Notes: a model not told the origin generated them from the letters alone. A stretch of 64,000 nucleotides of DNA from Truepera radiovictrix DSM 17093 (GCF_000092425.1 NC_014221.1:2919001-2983000); one strand, 5' to 3'. Counted from the stretch's first letter, positions 4,887 to 58,454 are shown. Translations and numbers: made by a program.

Positions 4887-5831
4887 ATGACGCTCCCCAC
4901 CCCGCCCTCCCCTACACCGGCACCTCAGCACTGCGGGGCTCGAGTCTTTAAGCAAACCTTTACGGGCAGCCTCGGCGAACGCGCGCTCTACATCTACCTC
5001 CCGCCGGACTACTTCGAGCCGCACGCAGCTGACACCCGCTACCCCATCCTCTACCTCCACGACGGTCAGAACTGCTTTGAAACCTTCTCGGAGGACGCCT
5101 TTAGCGGTTCGTGGCGGGCCGATGAGACCGCCGAACGGCTGATCCACGAGGGCCAGATGCGACCCGCCATCCTCGTCGGCGTCAGCAACGGGGGGGCCGC
5201 GCGCCTCGCGGAGTACCTGCCCCCTTACAGCCGCTTCGCCACGGCGCCCTCGAGGCGCTACCGCCACCGGCTCCGGCGGCGGCGGCGTGTGGCCTACCTC
5301 TGGGGGCAAGCGCACCGGACCTTCGCCTTCTACGAGGAGGTGCACGCGTACATGTGCGAGCACTTCCGCGTCCGGGGGGGCCGCGAGCACGTCGCCACGT
5401 GTGGTTCGTCGATGGGGGGGCTTTTCTCGGCCTACATCGCCTTTGAACACCCCGCGTTCGCACGGCACCACGCCATCTTGTCGGCGTCGTTCTGGGTCAC
5501 GGAGACCGCTGCGGGGGAACTCGAGATGCTCACGCGGCTCCGCGAAGCGCCCGTACACGACCTGCGCGTGTGGCTCGATTCGGGCGAGGGCGAGGGCGAC
5601 TCGGACGACAACAAGTGGGTCACCTTGGCGGCGCGCCAAGCCCTCCTGGACGCGGGTTACACCGAGGGCCAGGAGTTCGTCTACCACCTCGCCGAGGGCG
5701 CCACCCATAGCGAAGCGGCGTGGGCGGCGCGGCTGCCGCAGGTGCTCTCGTACCTCTTCCCGCCGGAGCCCGCCCCCTGCGACGCAGCCGAGGGGGACGC
5801 GGCAACGGTTCTCGTCGGGGACGCTCCGTGA
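4887..5831 (+). CDS. Alpha/beta-hydrolase esterase (esterase D family)
   Basis: 314 residues, PF00756-like. YPILYLHDGQN (about 52-62) is the typical strand-loop, GSSMGG puts the nucleophile at Ser175, and ATHSE near the C-terminus supplies the catalytic His. There is no signal peptide, so it is probably cytoplasmic. An odd Arg-rich loop (about 123-134) sits in the lid region and may be a simple-sequence expansion. The stop overlaps the start of a second esterase (GTGA), so the two are translationally coupled, and an ATP-grasp ligase follows. The trio suggests formation and hydrolysis of an ester- or amide-linked metabolite, but the substrate is unknown. Confidence 0.8.
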   Translation: MTLPTPPSPTPAPQHCGARVFKQTFTGSLGERALYIYLPPDYFEPHAADTRYPILYLHDGQNCFETFSEDAFSGSWRADETAERLIHEGQMRPAILVGVSNGGAARLAEYLPPYSRFATAPSRRYRHRLRRRRRVAYLWGQAHRTFAFYEEVHAYMCEHFRVRGGREHVATCGSSMGGLFSAYIAFEHPAFARHHAILSASFWVTETAAGELEMLTRLREAPVHDLRVWLDSGEGEGDSDDNKWVTLAARQALLDAGYTEGQEFVYHLAEGATHSEAAWAARLPQVLSYLFPPEPAPCDAAEGDAATVLVGDAP

Positions 5832-6565
5832 GGCGCCGCTACGAAAAGCTCTACAACCCCGCCATCGGGCGCGACGTGCAGGTGCTCGCCTTCGGCCACT
5901 ACGGTGCCCCGTTGATCGCTTTCCCCTCGGGCGGCGGGCAGTTTTACGACTTTGAAGACAACGGGATGATCGGCGCCGTCGCGCACCTCATTGAGGCGGG
6001 CAAACTCAAGGTCTACTGCCCGGAGAGCCTGGACCACGAGACGTGGCTCGCGCACAAAGACCCCCACGAGCGGGCGCTGCGCCACCGCGCCTACGAGGAC
6101 TTCATCCTGCACACCCTGGTGCCCGCCATCCGCTACGACTGCGAGGACGCCACCCTGAGCGTCGCCCTCACGGGCTGCTCGTTGGGCGCCTTTCACGCGG
6201 CCAACTTCGCCCTGAAGCACCCGCACGTCTTTCCTTACGCGCTGTGTCTCAGCGGGCGCTACAACGCCGAGTCGTTTACCGGTCCGACAGCGTCCCAGGA
6301 GGTCTACTTCAACAACCCGGTCGCGTACGTGCGCAACTTCGGGGGGGCACACCTCGAGTTCGTCCGCCGCCACGCGCACCTCGTGTTGGTCTGTGGCCAG
6401 GGCGCCTGGGAGGACAAGTGCCTCGCCGACACCCACCTGTTGGCCGACCTGCTGCGGGAAAAAGGCGTGTCCCACGAGCGCGACATCTGGGGGCACGACG
6501 TCGACCATCACTGGTACTGGTGGCGGCAGCAGCTCGCGCACCACTTAGGCCGCGCGCTCGGTTAG
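5828..6565 (+). CDS. Second esterase-family alpha/beta hydrolase
   Basis: 245 residues from the GTG overlapping the upstream stop. The open frame extends upstream, but that part is the out-of-frame image of the first esterase. GCSLG gives nucleophile Ser118; the catalytic His is likely in HDVDHHW near the end. The body (AFPSGGGQFYDFEDNG) resembles the shorter PF00756 esterases that follow the first type in Deinococcus-like genomes. It is cytoplasmic and co-transcribed with 4887-5831. Confidence 0.8.
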   Translation: MRRRYEKLYNPAIGRDVQVLAFGHYGAPLIAFPSGGGQFYDFEDNGMIGAVAHLIEAGKLKVYCPESLDHETWLAHKDPHERALRHRAYEDFILHTLVPAIRYDCEDATLSVALTGCSLGAFHAANFALKHPHVFPYALCLSGRYNAESFTGPTASQEVYFNNPVAYVRNFGGAHLEFVRRHAHLVLVCGQGAWEDKCLADTHLLADLLREKGVSHERDIWGHDVDHHWYWWRQQLAHHLGRALG

Positions 6566-13023: not shown

Positions 13024-13106
13024 AGGGCGCGTCGCCGCACGCTTTTCCCCTCCGCTTACAGCTTTTCCCCCCCACCGCGCCTAGAGTGCGCGGTGGGGGG
13101 TACACC

Positions 13107-14138
13107 ATGAACCAGAGCCACCGCCAACCTGCAAGCCGCGCGCCCGGCTTCTTCGTCACGGTCAAGCGCACGAGCGCCAGCGGCCAGGCCGCTAACCGAG
13201 CCGAAGACGTCTGGGGGTTGCGGACGCTAGTCGCTAACGTCTACTTCGTCGCGGTTACAGGCACTAGCCCGACGCCCAGTGGCGCTGACCGAGGCCACCC
13301 CGGGAGCCGCAACTGGGTGCTTATAGACGCGGGCATGCCGGGAACGGCGCGCCGCATCCTGCGGGTCGCCGCCGCCCGCTTCGGCGGCCCGCCCAAAGCC
13401 ATCATCTTGACGCACGGCCACTTCGACCACGTAGGAGCGCTTTCCAAGCTGCTCGAGCGTTGGGACGTGCCCGTTTACGCGCACGCGCTCGAGCTCCCCT
13501 ACCTCACCGGCCGCTCGGACTATCCGCCCCCCGACCCCTCCGTGGGTGGCGGCCTCATGGCTAGGAGCGCGCCCCTCTACCCGCGCCGCGGCCGCAACTT
13601 CGGTGGACGGGTGCGGCAGCTACCCGAGGACGGCAGCGTTCCCTTTTTGCCGGGGTGGCGCGCCCTGCACACACCCGGCCACACCGACGGGCACGTGTCT
13701 CTCTTTCGGGAAGCCGACCGGACGCTGCTCGCCGGGGACGCCTTCGTCACCGTCCGGCAGGAGTCGCTCCTAGCGGTGCTGCGGCAGCGCCGTGAGCTGC
13801 GCGGGCCGCCCCGCTACTTCACGACGAACTGGCTCGCCGCCCACACCTCGGTCCTGCGCCTCGCGGCGCTCTCTCCACAGGTCGCAGCGACCGGCCACGG
13901 CCGACCGATGCGCGGGGAGCGTTTGGCGCGCGAGCTAAGCGAATTAGCCGCCAACTTCGACCATCTGGCGGTGCCGAGGCGCGGGCGCTACGTCGGGCGC
14001 CCCGTGAGGGCCGACGAGCGCGGGGTGGTCTATGTGCCGCCGCCCAAACCGAGCCCGCTGGCACCAGCTCTTATCGGCGTAGGCGTGGCGGCGCTTCTGG
14101 GCGCCGCTATCGCGCTGCAGGGGCGCAAGAACCGCTGA
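13107..14138 (+). CDS. Metallo-beta-lactamase-fold hydrolase with C-terminal membrane anchor
   Basis: 343 residues from the ATG, with a G-rich tract 6 nt upstream. Zinc ligands are intact: THGHFDH (about 98-104), HTPGHT, and the bridging Asp in LAGDAF; ATGHGRPM supplies the last His. The fold covers glyoxalase II-like thioesterases and lactonases. The last ~28 residues (SPLAPALIGVGVAALLGAAI, then basic residues) form a predicted TM helix with the catalytic domain on the cytoplasmic side, unusual for the family. Substrate unknown. The 3' flank is full of repeats. Confidence 0.82.
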   Translation: MNQSHRQPASRAPGFFVTVKRTSASGQAANRAEDVWGLRTLVANVYFVAVTGTSPTPSGADRGHPGSRNWVLIDAGMPGTARRILRVAAARFGGPPKAIILTHGHFDHVGALSKLLERWDVPVYAHALELPYLTGRSDYPPPDPSVGGGLMARSAPLYPRRGRNFGGRVRQLPEDGSVPFLPGWRALHTPGHTDGHVSLFREADRTLLAGDAFVTVRQESLLAVLRQRRELRGPPRYFTTNWLAAHTSVLRLAALSPQVAATGHGRPMRGERLARELSELAANFDHLAVPRRGRYVGRPVRADERGVVYVPPPKPSPLAPALIGVGVAALLGAAIALQGRKNR

Positions 14139-14150
14139 GCTTTAGGGGAG

Positions 14151-14292
14151 AGGTCAACGCCACACTCAGCCTCATTAGAGGCGGGGCAGGGCCCCTGTGA
14201 GCACTCAGCCTCACTAGAGGCGTCCCCCGGTGGGGATGCTGCGCGAGGGCAGGGCCCCTGTGAGCTAGGCGTTCGGCCCATGGCCGTAACCT
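14151..14292 (+). repeat. Mosaic palindromic repeat, long composite copy
   Basis: It begins AGGTCAACGCCAC and ends GGCCGTAACCT like the other copies. The middle holds two internal duplications: CACTCAGCCTCA(T/C)TAGAGGCG at about 14,162 and 14,202, and GGGCAGGGCCCCTGTGAGC at about 14,184 and 14,249. Confidence 0.75.
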
Positions 14293-14294
14293 TG

Positions 14295-14334
14295 AGGTCA
14301 ACGCCACTAGGCGTTCGGCCTATGGCCGTAACCT
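14295..14334 (+). repeat. Mosaic palindromic repeat, minimal 40-bp copy
   Basis: AGGTCAACGCCACTAG plus GGCGTTCGGCCTATGGCCG plus TAACCT. It lacks the central palindrome of longer copies and defines the two ends of the family, AGGTCA and TAACCT, which are near-complementary. Confidence 0.75.
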
Positions 14335-14369
14335 AGGCGCGCCGTCTCCCCTTGTGCACACTCACCCAT

Positions 14370-14448
14370 AGGACAACGCCGCTAGTACGGGCACCGAGCC
14401 CGGCCCTAGTGGGCCTAGTACCAGGCGCCCCGGCTAGGCCGGTAACCT
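14370..14448 (+). repeat. Mosaic palindromic repeat, copy overlapping the valS 3' end
   Basis: It contains CTAGTACGGGCACCGAGCC and CGGCCCTAGTGGGCCTAGTA and ends CCGGTAACCT. On the - strand its end supplies the last ValS codons (Arg-Leu-Pro-Ala) and the TAG stop. Confidence 0.75.
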
Positions 14449-17211
14449 CCCCAAGGTCGCTAGGCTCGCCTCGAGCCCCCTGATTAATGCCTCGGCCTCC
14501 TCAAGGCGCCGCCGCTCCTCGGCCACGACCGCTTCGGGCGCGTTCTGCACGAACTTGGGGTTGGCGAGCTTTTTCTCGCTCTTGGCGCGGTTCGCGCGCA
14601 GCTCGGCGAGGCGCTTTTCCTGCCGCGCGCGCCACTCGGCGACGTCGACAAGGCCCTCGAGGGGCAGGGTGAGCTCGAGCTCCGGCACCACCTGCGACAA
14701 TGCGGCGCCCGAAACGGGCTTGTCGAGCAAGGCGGCGCGCGTCAGGGCCTTGAAGACCGCCTCGTTCTCTAGAAGCGTCCCCGCACCCGCGCCGCTCGCG
14801 TACACCGCCACTTCCTGCGAGGGGGGTACGTTGGCCTCGGCGCGCAGGTTTCGCACCGCCGTGACCGCGTCCTGCAGGCGCCTAAAGTCGCGCTCGGCGG
14901 CCTCATCGAGGAGGCTCTCATCCGCTTCCGGCCAGGCGCTCAGACCGAGCTGCGTCTCCAGGTTACCGGCCCAGCCGGTGCGCCCGGTACTAGGCCCACT
15001 AGGGCCGGGCTCGAGTCTAGGGCCACTAGGCCCCCGGCGGGTGCCGGTACTAGTGCCCGTACTAGTGGCGCTGACCTCATGCCCCAACGCCTCGTAGAGC
15101 TCAGACGTGATAAAGGGCATCAGCGGGTGCAGCAGCTTCAAGATATCGGTGAGCGTGCGCCGCAAGACCACCCGGGTCTCCTGGTTGCCGGCGCGCAGCT
15201 CCGGTTTGGCGGCCTCGAGGTACCAGTCGCAGAACTCCGACCAGACGAAGTCGTACGCGGCGCGGCTCGCACCGCCCAAGTCGAAGGCCTCGAGGTGGCG
15301 CGTCACCTCCTGGATGGCGCGCTGCAAACGGCTGGTGATCCAGCGGGAGGTCAACCCCCCCGCCTCCGGCACCCCCCCTTGTAGGGGAGGCAGGGGGGGA
15401 TCCCCAAGATGCATCATCGCAAACCGCACCGCGTTCCACAGCTTGTTGCCGAAGTTGCGCCCCATCTCCACCCGGCGCGGGTCCCAGCGGATATCCTGCG
15501 CCCCCGTCGAGGCGTAGGCCATGGCGAAGCGGAGCGCGTCGGCGCCCGCTTCGGCGATCACGTCCAGGGGGTCGATGCCGTTGCCCTTGGACTTCGACTG
15601 CTTCTGGCCGTGCTCGTCCAAGACCAGCCCGTGCAGCACGATGTCCGAGAAGGGTTTCTGGTCGAGTAGGGCGTAGCTCGCGAGCTGCATCTTGGTCACC
15701 CAGAAAAAGAGGATGTCGTAGCCCGTGACCAGCACCGAGGTCGGGAAGAACTTCTTGAAAAAGGGGTCCTCCGTGTCCGGCCACCCCAGGGTCGAAAACG
15801 GCCAGAGGTTCGAGGAGAACCAGGTGTCGAACACGTCGGGGTCTTGGGTCAGGGTCAGGTGCGCGTAACGCGGGTCGTCGGGGGGGTCGAGGTCGGGGTT
15901 TTGGGGGTCGGGGACGTAGATGTTGCCCTCGGGGTCGTACCACGCTGGGATCTGGTGGCCCCACCAGAGCTGCCTTGAAATGTTCCAGTCGCGTAAGCTG
16001 AGGAGCCAGTCGCGGTTGACCTTGGTGTAGCGCTCGGGCGTCAGGCGCATCTCGCCCGCGTCCAACGCGGCGAGCACCTTGGGCGCCACTTCGGACATCT
16101 TGAAAAACCACTGCGTCGAGAGAATCGGCTCCACGGGCGCTTTGGTGCGTTCGGAGAGCCCGATGGGCACGGTGTAGTCGCGCGCGTGGGCGAGCGCCCC
16201 GGCGGCCTCTAACGCCGCCACGACGCGCGCGCGCGCCTCGAAGCGGTCCAAACCGCGAAACGCCTCCGGCACTAGCTCGCCGGTGAGCCTCGCCTCGAGG
16301 TCGATCACCGAAGGGCGCGGCAGGCCGTGGCGCAGGCCGATCTCGAAGTCGGTCGGGTCGTGCGCCGGGGTGATCTTAAGCGCCCCCGTACCGAAGTCCC
16401 GCTCGACGGCCTCGTCGGTGATGATGGGCACCCACCGGTCGGTCAGCGGGATGCGCGCCCGCTTGCCGTGCAGGTGCGTAAAGCGCTCGTCTTCGGGGTG
16501 CACGGCCAGGGCCACGTCCGCGAAGATGGTCTCGGGGCGCACGGTGGCGATCTCTAACGCGCCGCCCCCCTCGAGCGCGTAGCGGAGCGTGTAGAGCTTG
16601 CCGGGACGCTCCTCGCGGTCGACCTCGAGGTCTGAAAGCGTCGTCTGGCTCACGGGGTCCCAGTTGACGATGCGCTCGCCGCGGTAGATGAGGCCCCGGT
16701 GGTAGAGCTCGACGAACTGCTTGCGCACCGCACGGGACAGCCCCTCATCCATCGTAAAGCGCGTGCGGGTCCAGTCCGCCGAGATGCCGAGGCGCTGGAG
16801 CTGGCCGAGGATGATGCCGCCGTAGCGCTCCTTCCAGGCCCACATGCGCGCCAAAAACGCCTCGCGCCCGAGGTCGTGCTTGGTCAGCCCCTCGCTCTGC
16901 AAAGCCCGCTCGACCTGGACCTGGGTCGAGATCCCCGCGTGGTCGGTGCCGGGTTGAAAGAGCGCCTCGAAACCCCGCATCCGCTTGAAGCGGATCAGGG
17001 TGTCGATGAGGGTGTTGTCGAAGGCGTGGCCCAAGTGGAGGCTGCCGGTCACGTTGGGCGGCGGGATGACGATGCAAAAGCCTGGCTTGTCGCTCGTCGG
17101 GTCGGCGGTAAAGGGCCTCTCGGCCCAGCGCCGCGCCCACTTCTCCTCGACGCTGTGGGGGTCGTACTGCTTGGGCAACTCTCGGGTCTGGGTAGATTCA
17201 GACTGCGTCAT
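14434..17211 (-). CDS. valS: Valyl-tRNA synthetase with repeat-derived insertions
   Basis: 925 residues, with AAGGAG 8 nt upstream of ATG. It charges tRNA-Val. Class I signatures are intact: HLGH (PPNVTGSLHLGHAFD, about 51-65) and KQSKS; the editing domain has TVRPET and GTGALKITPAHDPTDFEIG, and a C-terminal coiled coil (about 860-915) is present. Two stretches look foreign: GDPPLPPLQGGVPEAGG (about 605-620) before the anticodon-binding domain, and a Ser/Thr/Gly/Pro-rich stretch of about 39 residues (712-750) encoded by a mosaic repeat. Both leave the frame open. The C-terminal RLPA also comes from a repeat. Downstream of a methyltransferase under a T-box leader. Confidence 0.95.
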   Translation of the reverse strand: MTQSESTQTRELPKQYDPHSVEEKWARRWAERPFTADPTSDKPGFCIVIPPPNVTGSLHLGHAFDNTLIDTLIRFKRMRGFEALFQPGTDHAGISTQVQVERALQSEGLTKHDLGREAFLARMWAWKERYGGIILGQLQRLGISADWTRTRFTMDEGLSRAVRKQFVELYHRGLIYRGERIVNWDPVSQTTLSDLEVDREERPGKLYTLRYALEGGGALEIATVRPETIFADVALAVHPEDERFTHLHGKRARIPLTDRWVPIITDEAVERDFGTGALKITPAHDPTDFEIGLRHGLPRPSVIDLEARLTGELVPEAFRGLDRFEARARVVAALEAAGALAHARDYTVPIGLSERTKAPVEPILSTQWFFKMSEVAPKVLAALDAGEMRLTPERYTKVNRDWLLSLRDWNISRQLWWGHQIPAWYDPEGNIYVPDPQNPDLDPPDDPRYAHLTLTQDPDVFDTWFSSNLWPFSTLGWPDTEDPFFKKFFPTSVLVTGYDILFFWVTKMQLASYALLDQKPFSDIVLHGLVLDEHGQKQSKSKGNGIDPLDVIAEAGADALRFAMAYASTGAQDIRWDPRRVEMGRNFGNKLWNAVRFAMMHLGDPPLPPLQGGVPEAGGLTSRWITSRLQRAIQEVTRHLEAFDLGGASRAAYDFVWSEFCDWYLEAAKPELRAGNQETRVVLRRTLTDILKLLHPLMPFITSELYEALGHEVSATSTGTSTGTRRGPSGPRLEPGPSGPSTGRTGWAGNLETQLGLSAWPEADESLLDEAAERDFRRLQDAVTAVRNLRAEANVPPSQEVAVYASGAGAGTLLENEAVFKALTRAALLDKPVSGAALSQVVPELELTLPLEGLVDVAEWRARQEKRLAELRANRAKSEKKLANPKFVQNAPEAVVAEERRRLEEAEALIRGLEASLATLGRLPA
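14960..15077 (-). repeat. Mosaic palindromic repeat inside valS
   Basis: A 118-bp copy with the same ends (AGGTCA... and ...TAACCT on the - strand) and the core CGGCCCTAGTGGGCCTAGTA, in the valS frame. A second short palindrome (GGGCCTAGTGGCCCTAG) is duplicated in it. Confidence 0.8.
15371..15402 (-). repeat. C-rich hairpin repeat inside valS
   Basis: ACCCCCCCTTGTAGGGGAGG followed by CAGGGGGGATC. Translated, it reads GDPPLPPLQGGVP, a peptide typical of a widespread bacterial intergenic repeat, here in-frame in valS. Confidence 0.6.
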
Positions 17212-17224
17212 CGGTGGCTCCTTT

Positions 17225-17332
17225 AGGTTACGGCCATCGGCCGGAGTGCGTAGCCGCGCGAAGCGACGCCTGGTACTAGGCCCACTAGGGCCGGGCTCGG
17301 TGCCCGTACTACCGTACTAGTGGCGTTGACCT
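17225..17332 (-). repeat. Mosaic palindromic repeat between methyltransferase and valS
   Basis: A 108-bp copy ending GGCCGTAACCT just before the valS Shine-Dalgarno sequence. Its other end (AGGTCAACGCCACTAG) supplies the last codons and stop of the upstream methyltransferase gene. Confidence 0.8.
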
Positions 17333-18099
17333 TTGGTGAGTAGCACGATCATGCGCGGGCTTACTGGGGTGTAGGGCGCTAACGTCCAGTCGCCGTAGAC
17401 CTCGTGCACATCGAAGCCGGCGGCGTGGGCGCGCTCAGAGAGTTCGCTCAGGGTGTAGTGAAAGCGCGTGAGGCGGCGCGTTTGGCAGCGCCCGTCGGCA
17501 AAAATGCGCTGCTGCTCGAGGTGCTGCGCGCCCGTGCGGAGGTCGAAGTGGGCTTCCTCGAGGATCCAGGGCAGCTCTCCCCCACCCAAGAGGGGCGCCA
17601 GCTCCGCTCTGGGGGGTGCAGCCTTGCGCCACGAGCGCGTCGTCCCCGCCTGCACCAGTCGCTCGCGGTTGCTGGTGTCGAGCAGAAAGCGGCCCTGCGG
17701 CTTGAGGGCGCGCGCCACCCCGCGCAGCACCCGCGCCGCTGCGTTGGGGTCGGCAAAGAGGCCGTTGGCGACGCAGTACACCGCGTCAAACGCGTCCTCG
17801 AACTCGAGCCGGGTCGCGTCTTGCTCGAAAAGCGTCACCCCCTCGATGGGCTCCAGAAACGCCCCTTGCACGTCTACGCCGACGAGCGCCCCGAAGCCGC
17901 GCCGCTTCAGTTCGCGCAGGTGCCGCCCCCAACCGCAGGCGAGGTCCAAGATGCGCTCGGTCGGTTGGAGCCCCAACACGCGCACGAGCGCGTCCACCTC
18001 GAGCCGGGTGCGCGCCGCCGTAAAGCGGGCCTCATGCTCGAGGCGGTAGACCGTGTCGAACTCGCTCAGATCGACTGTTTGGGGTGTTTGGGTCGACAT
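17317..18099 (-). CDS. Class I SAM-dependent methyltransferase
   Basis: 260 residues. GGAGGAGG lies 7 nt before the ATG and is the sequence sequestered in the T-box leader. Motif I (ILDLACGWGRHLREL, about 50-64) binds SAM; GVDVQG ends strand 2; FDAVYCVANGLF is motif post-II. The acceptor is unknown; a helical insert (about 135-175) may bind it. The C-terminal KGQRH and the stop codon come from the mosaic repeat, so the native C-terminus may differ. First gene of the T-box-controlled operon with valS, which suggests a translation-related role but does not prove it. Confidence 0.8.
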   Translation of the reverse strand: MSTQTPQTVDLSEFDTVYRLEHEARFTAARTRLEVDALVRVLGLQPTERILDLACGWGRHLRELKRRGFGALVGVDVQGAFLEPIEGVTLFEQDATRLEFEDAFDAVYCVANGLFADPNAAARVLRGVARALKPQGRFLLDTSNRERLVQAGTTRSWRKAAPPRAELAPLLGGGELPWILEEAHFDLRTGAQHLEQQRIFADGRCQTRRLTRFHYTLSELSERAHAAGFDVHEVYGDWTLAPYTPVSPRMIVLLTKGQRH

Positions 18100-18106
18100 G
18101 CAAAAA

Positions 18107-18452
18107 CCTCCTCCGCTCGGTCAATAGCTGCGGACGAGGCGAACCCCGCGGTACCACCGCGCTTCCCTTAGCACGCGCTAAAGGCACTCGTTCAAGCTGC
18201 ACTGTCGGGGCAGCGTCCGGGGCGTCTACTGGGCTCGGTGTTCTATACCAAACCGTTCTTGCCCGGGCTCACGGGCGACGTTCGCTCGGCTCTCCCGGCG
18301 CCAGCTCTCAGCGCGCCGCTGGCGCTCTCTGTCGGGCAGCTGCGGTCAACGGCACGAGCCGTGGGCCTAGTGGCCCTAACCGTTCGGTCAACGGCACAAG
18401 CCGCGGGCCTAGTGGCCCTCACCGCTTCGAGCTACTCCTCCCGCTCAACGCG
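18107..18452 (-). promoter_or_regulatory. T-box leader (Val) with Shine-Dalgarno sequestration
   Basis: Textbook antisequestrator: helix GCGG/CCGC, 7-nt bulge TGGTACC, helix GCGGGG/CCTCGT closed by TTCG (18,130-18,162). The competing helix pairs CCTCGTCCGC (18,130-18,139) with GCGGAGGAGG (18,107-18,116), which hides the ribosome site of the methyltransferase; TTTTT follows, so partial termination is also possible. Stem I shows AGTA in GGAGTAGC, flanking helices GCGGG/CCCGT and GCTCG/CGAGC, a candidate GTC (Val) specifier at 18,277-18,279, and an apical AGAGAGC segment. Uncharged tRNA-Val would open the ribosome site. Confidence 0.88.
18343..18427 (-). repeat. Two tandem 42-43 bp repeats inside T-box stem I
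   Basis: Two near-identical units (CGGTCAACGGCAC, then GGGCCTAGTGGCCC), related to the mosaic family, lie in the 5' arm of stem I between the specifier-loop helix and the apical part. Each can fold on itself. Confidence 0.65.
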
Positions 18453-18458
18453 CCTTAA

Positions 18459-20159: not shown

Positions 20160-20715
20160 ACAACCACCGACTAAAGTCGGAGGGTTTGAAAGAGCGACTG
20201 AAAGTCGGGATACGGGTCATAGACCCGTCAGTCCTCTGTCCTGAAGTTGTCCTCTCGGGTCGGCTCGAAGTGATGCTCCAGGTAGCTCTTGATCATCTCT
20301 TCCGTGACTTGCCCCACCGTCGCACAGAAGTACCCTCTAGCCCAAAAGTGCCGCCCCCAATAACGTGCTTTTAGCTTCGGATACTCCTCGAATAGCTTGC
20401 TCGCACTTCGCCCTTTGATCCGCCGCATGATCTCACTCGGCGCCATTGTCGGCGGCGCACTCACCAGAATATGCACGTGGTCGCTACTCACCACTCCGCT
20501 CAGAATCCGTATCTCGAACGCCTCGCAGGTTTGCCGCACCAACTCCCTAACACGCTCGGCTATGTCCCCTTTCAGCACCTTGTAGCGGTACTTCGTGACC
20601 CACACAAAGTGGTACTCGATGTTGAAGACGGTATGGCTGCCATAGCGATACTCCATCCGCCAAGGCTAGCAGATGAAATCTGACCGCCTAAAGGCGGTGG
20701 TTTCAACCTTACGCT
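20160..20715 (-). mobile_element. IS200/IS605-type element, tnpA only
   Basis: A single Y1 transposase gene flanked by subterminal hairpins: CCGACTAAAGTCGG (20,167-20,180), CGACT/AGTCG (20,195-20,207) and ACGGGTC/GACCCGT (20,212-20,228) on one side, and ACCGCCTAAAGGCGGT (about 20,682-20,697) on the other. These are the imperfect palindromes such transposases recognise. Exact ends are not fixed; no tnpB/iscB gene is present. Confidence 0.8.
20228..20656 (-). CDS. tnpA: IS200/IS605 family transposase (Y1, TnpA)
   Basis: 142 residues, the usual length. The HUH pair is in HVHILVSAPP (about 61-70) and the catalytic Tyr in EEMIKSYLEHHF (about 120-131). TnpA dimers cut and join single-stranded DNA at hairpin ends without target duplication. 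The N-terminus YHFVWVTKYRYKVL is typical. All key residues are present, so it could be active. Opposite in strand to its neighbours, between the SDR and FAS1 genes. Confidence 0.95.
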   Translation of the reverse strand: MEYRYGSHTVFNIEYHFVWVTKYRYKVLKGDIAERVRELVRQTCEAFEIRILSGVVSSDHVHILVSAPPTMAPSEIMRRIKGRSASKLFEEYPKLKARYWGRHFWARGYFCATVGQVTEEMIKSYLEHHFEPTREDNFRTED

Positions 20716-23483: not shown

Positions 23484-24953
23484 ATGACCACGAGCGTCAT
23501 CAGCGGCGAGGGCTTTTCGGCCCCCCCTTCTGCGCCGCCATCGGTGCCCCTATGCGTCGATCTCGACGGCACCTTGATCCAAACCGACCTTCTGCTCGAG
23601 TCGCTGCTCGCCCTGCTCAAGCGGCGCTCGCCGAGCCCCCTCAAGCTCCCCGTGTGGCTACTTGGGGGTAGGGCGCACCTGAAACGCGAGGTCACGGCGC
23701 GCGCCGAGCTCGACGTCACCGCGCTACCCTACCGCGAGGAGCTCGTCGCGTACTTGCGCGAGGTGCGCGGCGCCGGGCGACCCCTCGTCTTAGCGACCGC
23801 CGCCGACCAGCAGGTCGCGGCGCGCGTCGCCAAACACCTAGGGCTTTTCGATCACGTCGTCGCCAGCGACGGCCGGGTGAACAACGCCGGCGCGGAAAAG
23901 CTGCGCGCGTTGCAGAGCGTTTTTCCAGAGGGCGCATTCGTCTACGCTGGCGACGCCCCCCTCGACCTTGCGGTGTGGCGCGGCGCGGCGGGCGCGGTCG
24001 TCGTCGGCGAACGGCTCGCGGCCAGGGTCGCGAGGGTCACGCCTATCGAGCGCGTGTTTCCCGTGCAGGACCGTCTGCGCGAACTGCCGCGCGCGCTCAG
24101 GGTGCACCAGTGGGTGAAAAACCTGCTCATCGGGGTGCCGCTGCTGCTCGCTCACCAGCTGAGCGCGCCCCTGCTCCTAGCGGCGCTTTTGGCCTTTGTC
24201 GCCTTTGGCCTGCTCGCCTCGGCGACGTACGTGATCAACGACCTTTTGGACCTCGAGGCCGACCGCCACCACCCCCGCAAACGCCGGCGCCCCTTCGCCG
24301 CCGGCACGCTCCCCCTCAAGCTGGGCGTCGCACTCGTACCGGCGCTTTTGGCGAGCAGCGCGCTCGTTGCGCTCGCCCTTCCCCCCGCCTTTTGGGCGGT
24401 GCTCGCGGGCTACTTTGTCACGACGCTCGCCTACTCGCTCCACCTCAAGCGCGTGCCCATCCTCGACGTCATCGTGCTCGCGCTGCTCTACACCCTGCGC
24501 ATCATCGCTGGCACCGCAGCCACCGGGCTCGAGGTCACCCCGTGGCTGCTCGCCTTTTCGACCTTTTTCTTTCTCTACCTCGCGTTCGTCAAGCGCCTCT
24601 CCGAGCTCCACGCGCTGCGCCGAGCGGGCGACCTCCAAGCCAAGGGGCGCGGCTACAGCGTCGAGGACTTTGCGGGGCTCGCCAACTTGGGCGCCTCGAG
24701 CGGTTACGTGTCGGTGCTCGTCGTCGCGCTCTACCTGAGCAGCCCGCAGGTCGCCGAGCTCTACCGCGCACCCCTCGTGCTCTGGCTGCTCTGCCCGCTG
24801 CTGCTCTTTTGGATTAGCCGCGTCTGGCTGCTCGCTCACCGCGGGCAGATGCACGACGACCCGGTCGTGTTCGCCCTACGCGACCGCGTGAGCTACGCCG
24901 TCGGCGCCCTCGCCCTAGCGATCGGCTTAGCGGCCACCTGGGGGTGGGGATGA
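23484..24953 (+). CDS. HAD phosphatase-UbiA prenyltransferase fusion
   Basis: 489 residues. The HAD domain (about 20-200) has VDLDGTLIQTD (motif I), LATAADQQV (motif II) and YAGDAPLDLAVW (motif IV). The UbiA domain (about 205-489, eight or nine TM helices) has NDLLDLEADRHHPRKRRRPF (NDxxDxxxD) and LDVIVLALLYTLRIIAG. Mycobacterial Rv3806c, also UbiA, attaches phosphoribose to polyprenyl phosphate; fusions like this could also remove the 5-phosphate. Neighbours DprE1- and DprE2-like support a polyprenyl-phospho-ribose to arabinose route. Its stop overlaps the next start (ATGA). A TATACT at about 23,283 is a weak promoter candidate in the 272-bp gap before it. Confidence 0.88.
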   Translation: MTTSVISGEGFSAPPSAPPSVPLCVDLDGTLIQTDLLLESLLALLKRRSPSPLKLPVWLLGGRAHLKREVTARAELDVTALPYREELVAYLREVRGAGRPLVLATAADQQVAARVAKHLGLFDHVVASDGRVNNAGAEKLRALQSVFPEGAFVYAGDAPLDLAVWRGAAGAVVVGERLAARVARVTPIERVFPVQDRLRELPRALRVHQWVKNLLIGVPLLLAHQLSAPLLLAALLAFVAFGLLASATYVINDLLDLEADRHHPRKRRRPFAAGTLPLKLGVALVPALLASSALVALALPPAFWAVLAGYFVTTLAYSLHLKRVPILDVIVLALLYTLRIIAGTAATGLEVTPWLLAFSTFFFLYLAFVKRLSELHALRRAGDLQAKGRGYSVEDFAGLANLGASSGYVSVLVVALYLSSPQVAELYRAPLVLWLLCPLLLFWISRVWLLAHRGQMHDDPVVFALRDRVSYAVGALALAIGLAATWGWG

Positions 24954-26443
24954 GCGGGGCCGAGAGCGCATACACCTCGCAGTACACCTCGTGGGGCCGC
25001 TACCCGCGCGCGCAACACCGCGTCCGCCGGCTCGCTTGGCGCCACGACGCCGAGGCCGCGCTGACGCCGGGCGACGGCACCGTGCTGCCCTACGCTTACG
25101 GCCGCTCCTACGGCGACGTCTGCTTAAATGACGGGGGCACCCTCATCGACACGCGCGCGCTGAATCGCCTGATCGCTTTTGATCCGCAGACCGGCGTGCT
25201 GCGCGCGGAGGCGGGGGTGAGCCTCGAGCAGGTGCTGGCGTTCGCCGTGCCGCGCGGCTTTTTCCTGCCGGTCAGCCCCGGCACCCGCTACGTCTCGCTC
25301 GCGGGCGCGGTCGCAAACGACGTCCACGGCAAAAACCATCACCGCGCGGGCACCTTCGGGCGGCACGTGCGCGCCTTTGAGCTCCTGCGCTCGGACAGCG
25401 CCTCTGGACGCGCGGGCTGCACCCGCACCCGAACGGACAGCGCCTCTGGACGCGCGGGCTGCACCCGCACCCGGACGGACAGCGCCTCTGGGCGCGCGGG
25501 CTGCACCCGCACCCGGACGGACGGCGCACGCCTGGTGTGCTCCCCCGAGGAGAACCCCGAGCTCTTTCGCGCGACGGTGGGCGGGCTCGGCCTAACGGGG
25601 CTCATGCTCTGGGTCGAGATCGCCCTCAAACCCATCCGCAGCGCCGAACTCGAGGTCGAGACCATCAAGTTCGCCAACCTCGACGAGTTTTTCGAGCTTT
25701 CCGCCGAATCCGACGCCACCCACGACTACACCGTCGCCTGGGTCGACTGCGCCGCGAGCGGGGCGACGCTGGGGCGCGGCCTCCTGATGCGCGGCAACGA
25801 GGCGGCCGACGGCCCCCTGACGCCGCACACCACAAGGCGCCTGAACGTCCCCCTGGAGGCGCCGAACGCGCTCTTAAACCCCCTCTCTATCCGCGCCTTT
25901 AACGCGCTCTACTACCACAAGAGGCGCGCCAAGGTGGTGCGCACGCGCCAACACTACTCGAGCTTTTTCTACCCGCTCGACGCCCTCGGGGGGTGGAACA
26001 AGCTCTACGGCCCGCGCGGGTTGTTGCAGTACCAGTGCGTCCTCCCCTACGCGGGTGACGCAGGGCCTCTCAAAATGATCTTCCGCGCGGTCGCCGACTC
26101 GGGGATGGGGTCACCTCTGGCCGTGCTCAAGGTGTTCGGCGACCTGCCCTCGCCCGGGATGCTCTCGTTCCCGCGCCCGGGGGTCACCTTGGCGCTCGAC
26201 TTTCCCAACGCGGGCGCGCGCACGCTGGCGCTGCTGGCGCGCCTCGACGACATCGTCCGCGCGGAGGGGGGGCGGCTCTACCCCGCGAAAGACGCCCGCA
26301 TGTCGGGGCGCGACTTTCGGCGCTTCTACCCGCAGTGGCGCGCGTTCGCGCGGTTCGTCGACCCGCGCTTCTCCTCGAGCTTCTGGCGGCGGGTCACGCA
26401 AGACGCCGCTCAGGAGACGGGTGGGGACGGGGAGGACGTGTGA
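24950..26443 (+). CDS. DprE1-like FAD-dependent oxidoreductase with a tandem-repeat loop
   Basis: 497 residues. The PCMH-type FAD domain includes YAYGRSYGDVCLNDGGTLID (about 46-65), VSPGTRYVSLAGAVANDVHG and GTFGRHV. DprE1 oxidises the 2'-OH of polyprenyl-phospho-ribose. A loop at about 149-190 holds three copies of DSASGRAGCTRTRT; without them the protein would read LLRSD-GARLV, as expected for the family. The C-terminal substrate domain has YYHKRRAKVVRTRQHYSSFF. Overlaps both neighbours in the operon. Confidence 0.87.
   Translation: MSGAESAYTSQYTSWGRYPRAQHRVRRLAWRHDAEAALTPGDGTVLPYAYGRSYGDVCLNDGGTLIDTRALNRLIAFDPQTGVLRAEAGVSLEQVLAFAVPRGFFLPVSPGTRYVSLAGAVANDVHGKNHHRAGTFGRHVRAFELLRSDSASGRAGCTRTRTDSASGRAGCTRTRTDSASGRAGCTRTRTDGARLVCSPEENPELFRATVGGLGLTGLMLWVEIALKPIRSAELEVETIKFANLDEFFELSAESDATHDYTVAWVDCAASGATLGRGLLMRGNEAADGPLTPHTTRRLNVPLEAPNALLNPLSIRAFNALYYHKRRAKVVRTRQHYSSFFYPLDALGGWNKLYGPRGLLQYQCVLPYAGDAGPLKMIFRAVADSGMGSPLAVLKVFGDLPSPGMLSFPRPGVTLALDFPNAGARTLALLARLDDIVRAEGGRLYPAKDARMSGRDFRRFYPQWRAFARFVDPRFSSSFWRRVTQDAAQETGGDGEDV
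25394..25519 (+). repeat. Three tandem 42-bp units inside the DprE1-like gene
   Basis: Units at 25,394-25,435, 25,436-25,477 and 25,478-25,519 differ by only one or two bases. Each encodes 14 residues and keeps the frame. An 11-bp partial fourth unit follows. Confidence 0.95.
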
Positions 26444-33869: not shown

Positions 33870-34106
33870 ATGCTAGAAGTCACCGTGGCGGAAGCCAAAG
33901 CCAAACTGAGCGAAATCATCAAGCGCGTCGAAGAAGGCGAGCAGGTCACCATCACCCGCAGGGGAAAACCCGTGGCGCGCCTCAGCGCCACCCAAGCACC
34001 CAAAAAGCCTTTGCCTTCACGCGCCGAATTTCGGGAAAAGCACGGCAACATCAAGACGAGTGCCGTTGAAGACCTTATTGCGATGCGTGAAGAGTACCGC
34101 TACTAG
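33870..34106 (+). CDS. Phd/YefM-type antitoxin
   Basis: 78 residues. The N-terminal Phd fold has EVTVAEAKAKLSEIIKRVEEG and VTITRRGKPVARL; the C-terminal ~30 residues (acidic and aromatic) are the toxin-binding tail. It would bind the operator just upstream and neutralise the PIN toxin at 34,249. The two genes were probably adjacent (TAG followed directly by GTG) before a 142-bp insertion; the TAG stop is part of the CTAG target duplication. Confidence 0.9.
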   Translation: MLEVTVAEAKAKLSEIIKRVEEGEQVTITRRGKPVARLSATQAPKKPLPSRAEFREKHGNIKTSAVEDLIAMREEYRY

Positions 34107-34248
34107 AAGCCATCTCAAAAACCCTTGGCGGGCTTTGCACGACGAGGTACTAGGCCCGCTAGGGCCGGGCTCGTGCCCGTACTAGGGAGCTGGGCGAGTA
34201 AGATAAAACGCTCAGAGTCTGAAAAGCCATTTTTGAGATGAGTTCTAG
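34103..34248 (+). mobile_element. MITE-like insertion with CTAG target duplication
   Basis: Ends CTAGAAGCCATCTCAAAAA (34,103-) and, reading inward from the other end, CTAGAACTCATCTCAAAAA (to 34,248) are inverted repeats. CTAG at 34,103-34,106 and 34,245-34,248 is the likely duplicated target, as for some IS5-family elements. About 138 bp between, no ORF. A mosaic palindromic repeat is nested at 34,146-34,187. Confidence 0.75.
34146..34187 (+). repeat. Mosaic palindromic repeat nested in the MITE
   Basis: Contains GGTACTAGGCCCGCTAGGGC and CGTGCCCGTACTAG, the same core as the copies at 14.4, 15.0 and 17.3 kb. Lacks the outer AGGTCA/TAACCT ends. Confidence 0.7.
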
Positions 34249-34692
34249 GTGATTTACCTCGACACGAGCTTCTTGATTCCCTACTACCTCAAAGAGAGCA
34301 GCAGCAAAGCCGTAGAGCTTGTGCTTCAAGCCGCCCCCGTAGGAAGCCTCGCCGTCAGCACCTGGACGCGGGTCGAGTTCATCAGCACCGTTGCGCGCAA
34401 GGTTCGCATGAAAGAGCTCACGAAAGGGAACGCTACCGCTCACGCGCAAGCCCTCGAGCACGACCTGCAAGACGGTTTTCAACTACTCCCTTGCACCACC
34501 GCCGATTTCGAGCTCTCTGGACAACTGCTCCTCTTAGACCCCGCGCTGGGTCTGCGTGGGCCTGACGCCCTGCACTTAGCCCTGGCTCGCAGGCACGAAG
34601 CGCAAATCTACAGCCTGGACAAGACCCTCATTCACGCCGCCACCGCCCTGGGCATTCCCGCGACTGACGCCAACATCTCAGGAGAAGCATGA
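34249..34692 (+). CDS. vapC: PIN-domain toxin (VapC-like)
   Basis: 147 residues. All four PIN acidic residues are visible: YLDTSFL (Asp5), WTRVEF (Glu), GPDALHLAL (Asp) and SLDKTL (Asp). VapC toxins are RNases that cut tRNA or rRNA when the antitoxin is lost. Its TGA overlaps the methylase ATG (ATGA), so methylase translation is coupled to toxin translation. The MITE between vapB and vapC probably weakens antitoxin-toxin coupling. Confidence 0.9.
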   Translation: MIYLDTSFLIPYYLKESSSKAVELVLQAAPVGSLAVSTWTRVEFISTVARKVRMKELTKGNATAHAQALEHDLQDGFQLLPCTTADFELSGQLLLLDPALGLRGPDALHLALARRHEAQIYSLDKTLIHAATALGIPATDANISGEA

Positions 34693-58192: not shown

Positions 58193-58360
58193 GCCCCGTT
58201 GGACTCCGTCGATGGCGCTAGCGACTCGCCCCTAGCACCCACGCGAGCCTTTGAGGATCGGTGACCCGCAGCGTGTGGTCCGCACGCGCGCCTACCGGGC
58301 GCTTAAGCGCCGGTTGGACGCAGCGCGAGGGTCACCAGAGCTAGGTAGCTGAACCGAGAT

Positions 58361-58398
58361 GGCTTGACCTTAGGTGGCTTGACCTAGGTGGCTTGACC
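58361..58398 (+). repeat. Three short direct repeats
   Basis: GGCTTGACC(T)TAGGT recurs at 58,361, 58,376 and 58,390. Confidence 0.7.
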
Positions 58399-58454
58399 CC
58401 GTGGCTCCGCGCGTCACGCCTCTAGGGGGATGGTTGGGGCGCAGCGCTAACGAA

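Follow-up and report, generated by a model that had tools for sequence, protein, structure and literature searches.

Protein-coding palindromic elements have hitherto been described chiefly in intracellular bacteria whose genomes are reduced (Rickettsia, Wolbachia), and weak selection might account for their survival in such hosts. The Rickettsia palindromic elements (RPEs) are about 150 bp long and form ten families, with 44 insertions in the genes of R. conorii (PMC10969869), and WPE-like inserts lie in frame and are non-inactivating (PMC4224334). Here we describe a palindrome family of Truepera radiovictrix, a free-living, radiation-resistant host that carries units in its only valyl-tRNA synthetase and in a repair protein resembling DdrA/Rad52, as well as in the T-box leader of its valS operon. 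As in RPEs and WPEs, the palindromes are dispersed and lie in frame in functional genes, many of them conserved, which are not inactivated (PMC10969869, PMC4224334, PMC2996958). The RPE-like pattern proposed in the initial annotation of the locus is borne out: copies occur in both coding and non-coding DNA, stay open in frame, and interrupt conserved genes whose orthologues lack the insert. The size differs, as the unit is 40 nt instead of ~150 bp and lengths of 79-142 nt are attained by nested composites alone. The family also differs from RPEs and WPEs in its two hairpins, its constant step of 42 nt, its tandem arrays and its nesting within itself, and in its host: RPEs and WPEs inhabit intracellular parasites, whereas Truepera is a free-living member of the Deinococcota. 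The family thus acts like RPEs but is structurally a family of its own; RPEs are compared here by description, and common descent is not claimed.

Other small repeats share some of these traits. The double-hairpin elements of Allomyces and sponge mitochondria are small, have two hairpins and occasionally lie in genes without a frameshift (PMC2800124), but their hosts are mitochondrial and they are mostly intergenic or in rRNA. REP/RAYT sequences are dispersed palindromes of 20-40 nt, some of them within genes (PMC3733652); they carry a GTAG or CGTC tag, whereas the Truepera unit ends in NGGTCA and TAACCN. The SNRs of Deinococcus radiodurans belong to the same phylum and have a mosaic structure (PMC1978522), but they are described as noncoding, and a covariance model of the Truepera unit had no match in the other genomes of the phylum that we searched. 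PARCELs (Mollicutes and others) are palindromic, protein-coding and tandem (PMC2996958), but these are amphipathic repeats that diversify membrane proteins, whereas the Truepera units enter unrelated housekeeping genes. The passages of the T. radiovictrix RQ-24T genome paper that we consulted give the same genome size as used here, report 9 CRISPR repeats and mention no palindromic family (PMC3072082). In the open literature, which leaves aside subscription journals, we found no account of such elements in Truepera.

Copies of the element in the 64-kb window

The window is a 64-kb stretch (C1:2919001-2983000) of the single-contig T. radiovictrix RQ-24T genome (3,260,398 bp). Within it, CGGCCCTAGTGGGCCTAGTA had four matches compared to 0.00 expected, and the start AGGTCAACGCC had eight near matches compared to 1.7 expected. 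All five copies described in the initial annotation are present, three on the plus strand (14151-14292, 14295-14334, 14370-14448) and two on the minus strand (14960-15077, 17225-17332). Further copies lie at 13159-13198, 13252-13291, 18343-18424 (two units) and 25392-25515 (three divergent units). The copies and their hosts are as follows.

13159..13198, plus strand: unit in frame in the metallo-beta-lactamase-fold gene, 14 aa
13252..13291, minus strand: second unit in frame in the metallo-beta-lactamase-fold gene, in the opposite orientation
14151..14292, plus strand: 142-bp composite, intergenic; a 40-bp copy with 102 nt in the first-hairpin loop
14295..14334, plus strand: minimal 40-nt double-hairpin unit, intergenic; AGGTCA, first hairpin (ACGCC ACTA GGCGT), T, second hairpin (CGGCC TAT GGCCG), TAACCT
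14370..14448, plus strand: nested copy of 79 nt (40+39) at the 3' end of valS; gives the final codons RLPA and the stop of valS
14960..15077, minus strand: valS-internal copy of 118 nt, nested three deep (40+39+39); reads EVSATSTGTSTGTRRGPSGPRLEPGPSGPSTGRTGWAGNL
17225..17332, minus strand: 108-nt composite between the methyltransferase gene and valS; gives the methyltransferase codons KGQRH and stop
18343..18424, plus strand: two tandem units (18343-18382 and 18385-18424, period 42) in the T-box leader; stems ACGGC/GCCGT and GGGCC/GGCCC
25392..25515, plus strand: divergent subtype (CGGACA...CACCCG), three units in tandem with a 42-nt period, in frame within the FAD-dependent oxidase gene
34147..34185, minus strand: core (inner-module) copy within a MITE-like element
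13086..14138, plus strand: host gene, metallo-beta-lactamase-fold protein
14434..17211, minus strand: host gene valS, the single full-length ValS match in the genome
17317..18099, minus strand: host gene for a class I methyltransferase, which precedes valS and has its end within the 17225-17332 element
18127..18457, minus strand: T-box leader (RF00230) of the methyltransferase-valS operon; 28.5 bits, gathering score 93
24944..26443, plus strand: host gene, FAD-binding oxidase

A core copy had also been placed in the MITE at 34.1 kb; the core is there, but it consists of the inner core module only. A 124-aa ORF at 18084-18458, which overlaps the T-box leader, was rejected as a gene, and other ORFs antisense to valS were likewise rejected.

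A 40-nt double hairpin is the unit of the family

Comparing copies genome-wide, we found a minimal unit of 40 nt that forms a double hairpin: NGGTCA, a 5-bp stem with an NCTA loop, a second 5-bp hairpin, and TAACCN. The outer N..N is A..T or C..G, and the ends are imperfect inverted repeats (AGGTCA/TAACCT). The second hairpin falls into two register classes: in one, 5 bp enclose a 4-nt loop; in the other, a spacer base comes before 5 bp and a 3-nt loop. Both classes keep the total at 40 nt. GGTCA, TAACC and, in the first loop, CNCTA are invariant. The copies had been thought to share both ends. This holds for GGTCA and TAACC, which are constant, but the 3' end of the five copies first described is two-fold, being GGCCGTAACCT in three copies and CCGGTAACCT in both valS copies.

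The pairing is conserved while the letters change. Across 17 different units, 98.8% of the cells in the foot and first hairpin were paired compared to a shuffled mean of 80.2%, and double-sided stem changes were seen in 26 cells compared to 8.9 in shuffles; none of 500 shuffles scored as high. Variants of the first stem include ACGCC/GGCGT, CGGGC/GCCCG, CGGCC/GGCCG, TCGGC/GCCGA and ACGGC/GCCGT, the ddrA copy has its foot altered on both sides (CAGTCA...TAACTG), and the second hairpin covaries too, in each of the two register classes. One foot position reads as a mismatched C.A or, on the opposite strand, as a T.G wobble in 16 of the 17 units, and so marks one strand. The predicted single-stranded DNA fold of the minimal 14295 unit is a three-way junction (-12.7 kcal/mol, z -4.8); that of the 118-nt valS copy has three nested hairpin pairs. 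The unit had no family match in Rfam, where the region gave the T-box leader only and six other loci gave none at the units. Part of the stem covariation could stem from hairpin-templated repair instead of selection.

The mosaics are nested insertions in the first-hairpin loop. The minimal 40-bp copy and the 142-bp composite do lie between genes, as first described, and the flanks of the composite are identical to the minimal copy at 39 of 40 positions. Removing 39 nt from the 79-nt copy leaves a unit like the 40-nt one, and the 118-nt valS copy has exactly 39 nt more than the 79-nt copy, in the inner first-hairpin loop. The additions in the 108-nt copy (17225) are ~8 and ~21 nt, part of them not frame-keeping, as would be expected of an intergenic copy free of coding constraint. 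This repeated targeting of the first-hairpin loop suggests that resident copies attract new ones. In addition, a 101-nt composite is common, almost letter for letter, to ddrA and a gene for a 568-aa protein, two distant genes; composites therefore also move or convert as a whole. Tandem units are spaced by exactly 42 nt (14 codons) at genome positions 469734, 492687, 1770222, 2755733, 2937343 and 2944392, with one exceptional spacing of 43 (2118822-2118865).

Insertions in protein genes and empty sites in orthologues

In-frame internal copies occur in the genes for ValS, the metallo-beta-lactamase-fold protein and the FAD oxidase in the window, and in five others elsewhere in the genome. In a further set of genes, units form the C-terminal tail.

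383417-384352: DdrA/Rad52-like gene with internal copy
1609336: cupin with internal copy
1954933: DeoC/LacD-type aldolase with internal copy
2754218: luciferase-domain (luciferase-like) protein with internal copy
3076073: rve transposase with internal copy
NfeD protein: C-terminal tail from three units
568-aa protein: C-terminal tail from five units
short-chain dehydrogenase: C-terminal tail from three units

In tyrS a cluster of units reads into the N-terminus at its annotated length and the same-genus protein starts later; the tyrS start may simply be mis-called.

Orthologues reveal empty sites. The copy inside valS, estimated at the outset as about 39 extra residues with an open frame, amounts to 39-40 codons by orthologue alignment, and 40 residues are missing in the ValS of the other genome of the genus (G001). 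Among the relatives listed with both halves of ValS, matches stop at ~707-716 and resume at ~748-758, and the alignment with the Thermus ValRS (1GAX) breaks at the same place (residues 695-698). Comparison with repeat-free relatives, suggested earlier as a check, thus finds the segment missing and not conserved as native sequence. Exactly 14 aa of the cupin and exactly 42 aa of the FAD oxidase are missing in the same-genus orthologues, while 15 aa of the aldolase are missing in relative G006, and 35 and 36 aa of DdrA in G018 and G017, respectively. The predicted peptide of the insert region is EVSATSTGTSTGTR... in ValS and SSALAEGPVALTSAPEVVVGNAAE... in the cupin.

Elements also provide gene ends. 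As proposed, one gives the valS C-terminus and stop (14434-14436, ...RLPA), where the same-genus orthologue ends in ...ASLAQLA without an element. Another gives the stop of the methyltransferase (17317, ...KGQRH), whose same-genus orthologue ends in ...LITRKEAL, again without one. The supply of stop codons, prominent in the initial annotation, is nevertheless a minor theme seen in these two genes; in-frame read-through insertion is the main theme.

Relative to the unit, each of the 12 in-gene copies examined uses frame 0 or frame 2, and the host frame stays open across every one. Frame 1 contains stops in every one of them except the FAD subtype; the 118-nt copy inside valS has seven stops in frame 1 and none in frame 0 or 2. 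Since hosts were recognised by their open frames, gene-breaking copies, which would look intergenic, would be under-counted and this frame use is biased. The genome has a single full-length ValS, and therefore ValRS must work with the insert if the insert is translated. In-gene copies are apparently kept as extra 14-aa blocks in working proteins, including the only valyl-tRNA synthetase.

Copy number and species range

A genome-wide count, one of the checks proposed for the family, yielded many further copies. The covariance model, built from 17 unit sequences, found 33 places in the T. radiovictrix genome (E<=0.01, both strands merged), of which about 10 were not among the training sequences. 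Adding the mosaics at 14151, 14960 and 17225 and the three divergent units at 25392 gives at least 39 units at ~20 loci. The pattern GGTCAN{22,38}TAACC had 54 genome matches compared to 11 for the reversed pattern, although part of these belong to a repeat unrelated to the unit.

With filters that were stricter and lose weak matches, the model found no units in 100 relatives, among them the other genome from the genus, and none in the rest of 111 Deinococcota genomes, a set that overlaps the relatives. The same-genus genome has one copy of the inner core module, in a MITE-like element resembling the one at 34.1 kb. A narrow 15-base pattern scanned across 84,980 species, the window's own genome left out, gave no match with both hairpins fully paired; its 50 scattered single matches were judged to be chance. 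Among the genomes searched, with one genome per species, the family is restricted to T. radiovictrix, and no transposition event or site polymorphic within the species was observed.

Spread of the element and alternative explanations

Very probably, these are mobile elements that insert in frame. Such very small, non-autonomous elements (40-nt double hairpins) would have spread after the split from the other sequenced Truepera. Their survival within genes could follow from three properties: the unit plus two flanking bases makes 42 nt, or 14 codons; four of the six unit frames are open; and the Ser/Thr/Gly/Pro/Arg-rich peptide would be tolerated in loops and tails. As to the machinery, an enzyme acting in trans may recognise the folded strand through the GGTCA/TAACC foot, the strand-asymmetric mismatch and the CNCTA loop, and copy it into new sites with a preference for resident loops; for this step alone the balance tips only slightly in its favour. 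A MITE would share its inverted ends with an autonomous transposon and show a target duplication; no autonomous partner with matching ends was found at the loci examined. There are 11 Y1 transposase matches, and at the IS200/IS605 loci examined the end hairpins are unlike the unit, save for a weak likeness of one 5-bp/4-nt hairpin. REPs are single imperfect hairpins. Among the Y1 loci whose flanks were examined, no RAYT-type locus flanked by units was found. No target-site duplication was resolved at base level in the orthologue alignments, the relatives being too diverged.

The serious rival is template switching, in which errors made at hairpins during replication or repair (strand switching, quasipalindrome correction, tandem slippage) create and multiply the copies with no dedicated enzyme, perhaps favoured by the intense repair of breaks in a radiation-resistant host. 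It would account for the tandem arrays with their fixed 42-nt period, the arms corrected to near-perfect pairs, the nesting in hairpin loops, the near-identity of the ddrA and 568-aa-gene composites and the lack of a matching transposase at the loci examined. However, the sites extend over 3 Mb and keep GGTCA, TAACC and CNCTA invariant beyond the needs of pairing, which suggests recognition of a specific sequence, and we consider template switching unlikely, if worth keeping in mind. Ranked below it, and improbable, is movement of the unit as a structured RNA that is copied back to DNA, with AGGTTA...TGACCT as the active strand. On that strand the C.A of the 6-bp foot becomes a U.G wobble (16 of 17 units) and the RNA fold is at least as favourable as on the other strand, but the same asymmetry could flag a DNA strand for a protein, and the three-way fold is the DNA minimum of the 14295 unit and not its RNA minimum.

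Two further explanations concern the copies within genes. The in-gene copies, which are short, hairpin-forming and within conserved genes, might be passed over during translation or cut out of the RNA, as with the translational bypass (byp) elements described for the mitochondria of Magnusiomyces. Inserts that are passed over could do without stop-free frames and an open host frame, yet 12 of 12 have both, and the downstream frame is kept even in the transposase with its 41-nt unit, so that this explanation is very improbable. The inserts could otherwise be native sequence, that is, ordinary variable loops or low-complexity tails, given that the peptides are of low complexity and lie in loops or at termini. 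The same DNA unit is, however, found in either orientation and read in two frames, and it also lies in non-coding DNA such as the T-box leader; this, together with its absence from orthologues, refutes the native reading and leaves it a negligible probability.

If the units are indeed mobile, the family shows selfish DNA growing proteins in discrete 14-residue steps. It is tempting, though rather doubtful at present, to see in it a new class of minimal mobile element: a 40-nt folded strand, a recombinase in trans that would recognise the three-way junction and insert into resident loops, 42/39-nt quanta that keep the frame, and a host that gains loops and tails 14 residues at a time. The minimal unit, with its two hairpins and two invariant feet, is simple enough for direct binding and mobility tests, and relatives with empty sites allow a before/after comparison of enzyme function.

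Units in the T-box leader of the valS operon

The two tandem units at 18343-18424 lie in the leader of the methyltransferase-valS operon. A T-box at the same operon position in the other genome of the genus scores 89.3 bits, also under the Rfam gathering score of 93. The T-box alignment puts the tandem units in stem I, between AGTA and CAGAGAG.

Double-hairpin units and neighboring elements

Features, with positions in the window, in the contig of its own genome (G000:C1) or in further loci (L-numbers, own numbering)
Window 18127-18457, minus strand: T-box leader upstream of the methyltransferase-valS operon
G000:C1 383903-384002 and 1770222-1770450: 101-nt composite of two double-hairpin units
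Window about 34105-34250; L073 about 1390-1595: MITE-like element whose ends read CATCTCAAAAA
Window 14163-14265; L110 about 5760-5875; L112 about 2660-2780: second repeat, CACTCAGCCTCNCTAGAGGCG...GGGCAGGGCCCCTGTGAGC
Window 20273-20632, minus strand: IS200/IS605-type Y1 transposase
L104 5706-6349, minus strand: CRISPR array (nine weak CRISPR-DR36 matches)

Two of the 40-nt double-hairpin units lie within stem I of the T-box leader, which is also kept in the other sequenced member of the genus (L109 818-1066). The same 101-nt composite occurs in the DdrA/Rad52-like gene ddrA and again, about 1.4 Mb away, at the C-terminal end of a 568-aa gene unrelated to ddrA.

The inner core module is present inside the MITE-like element, which is flanked by an antitoxin-like gene and a PIN-toxin-like gene, and likewise in a similar element of the same-genus genome.

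The second repeat sits in the loop of one double-hairpin unit, and other intergenic sites carry copies too. The Y1 transposase is one of seven near-identical copies in the T. radiovictrix genome. At 58341-58406 the window holds short TAGGTNGCTTGACC-like repeats in tandem, their period being 14 nt. A core module and two double-hairpin units in tandem lie about 1 kb from the CRISPR array.
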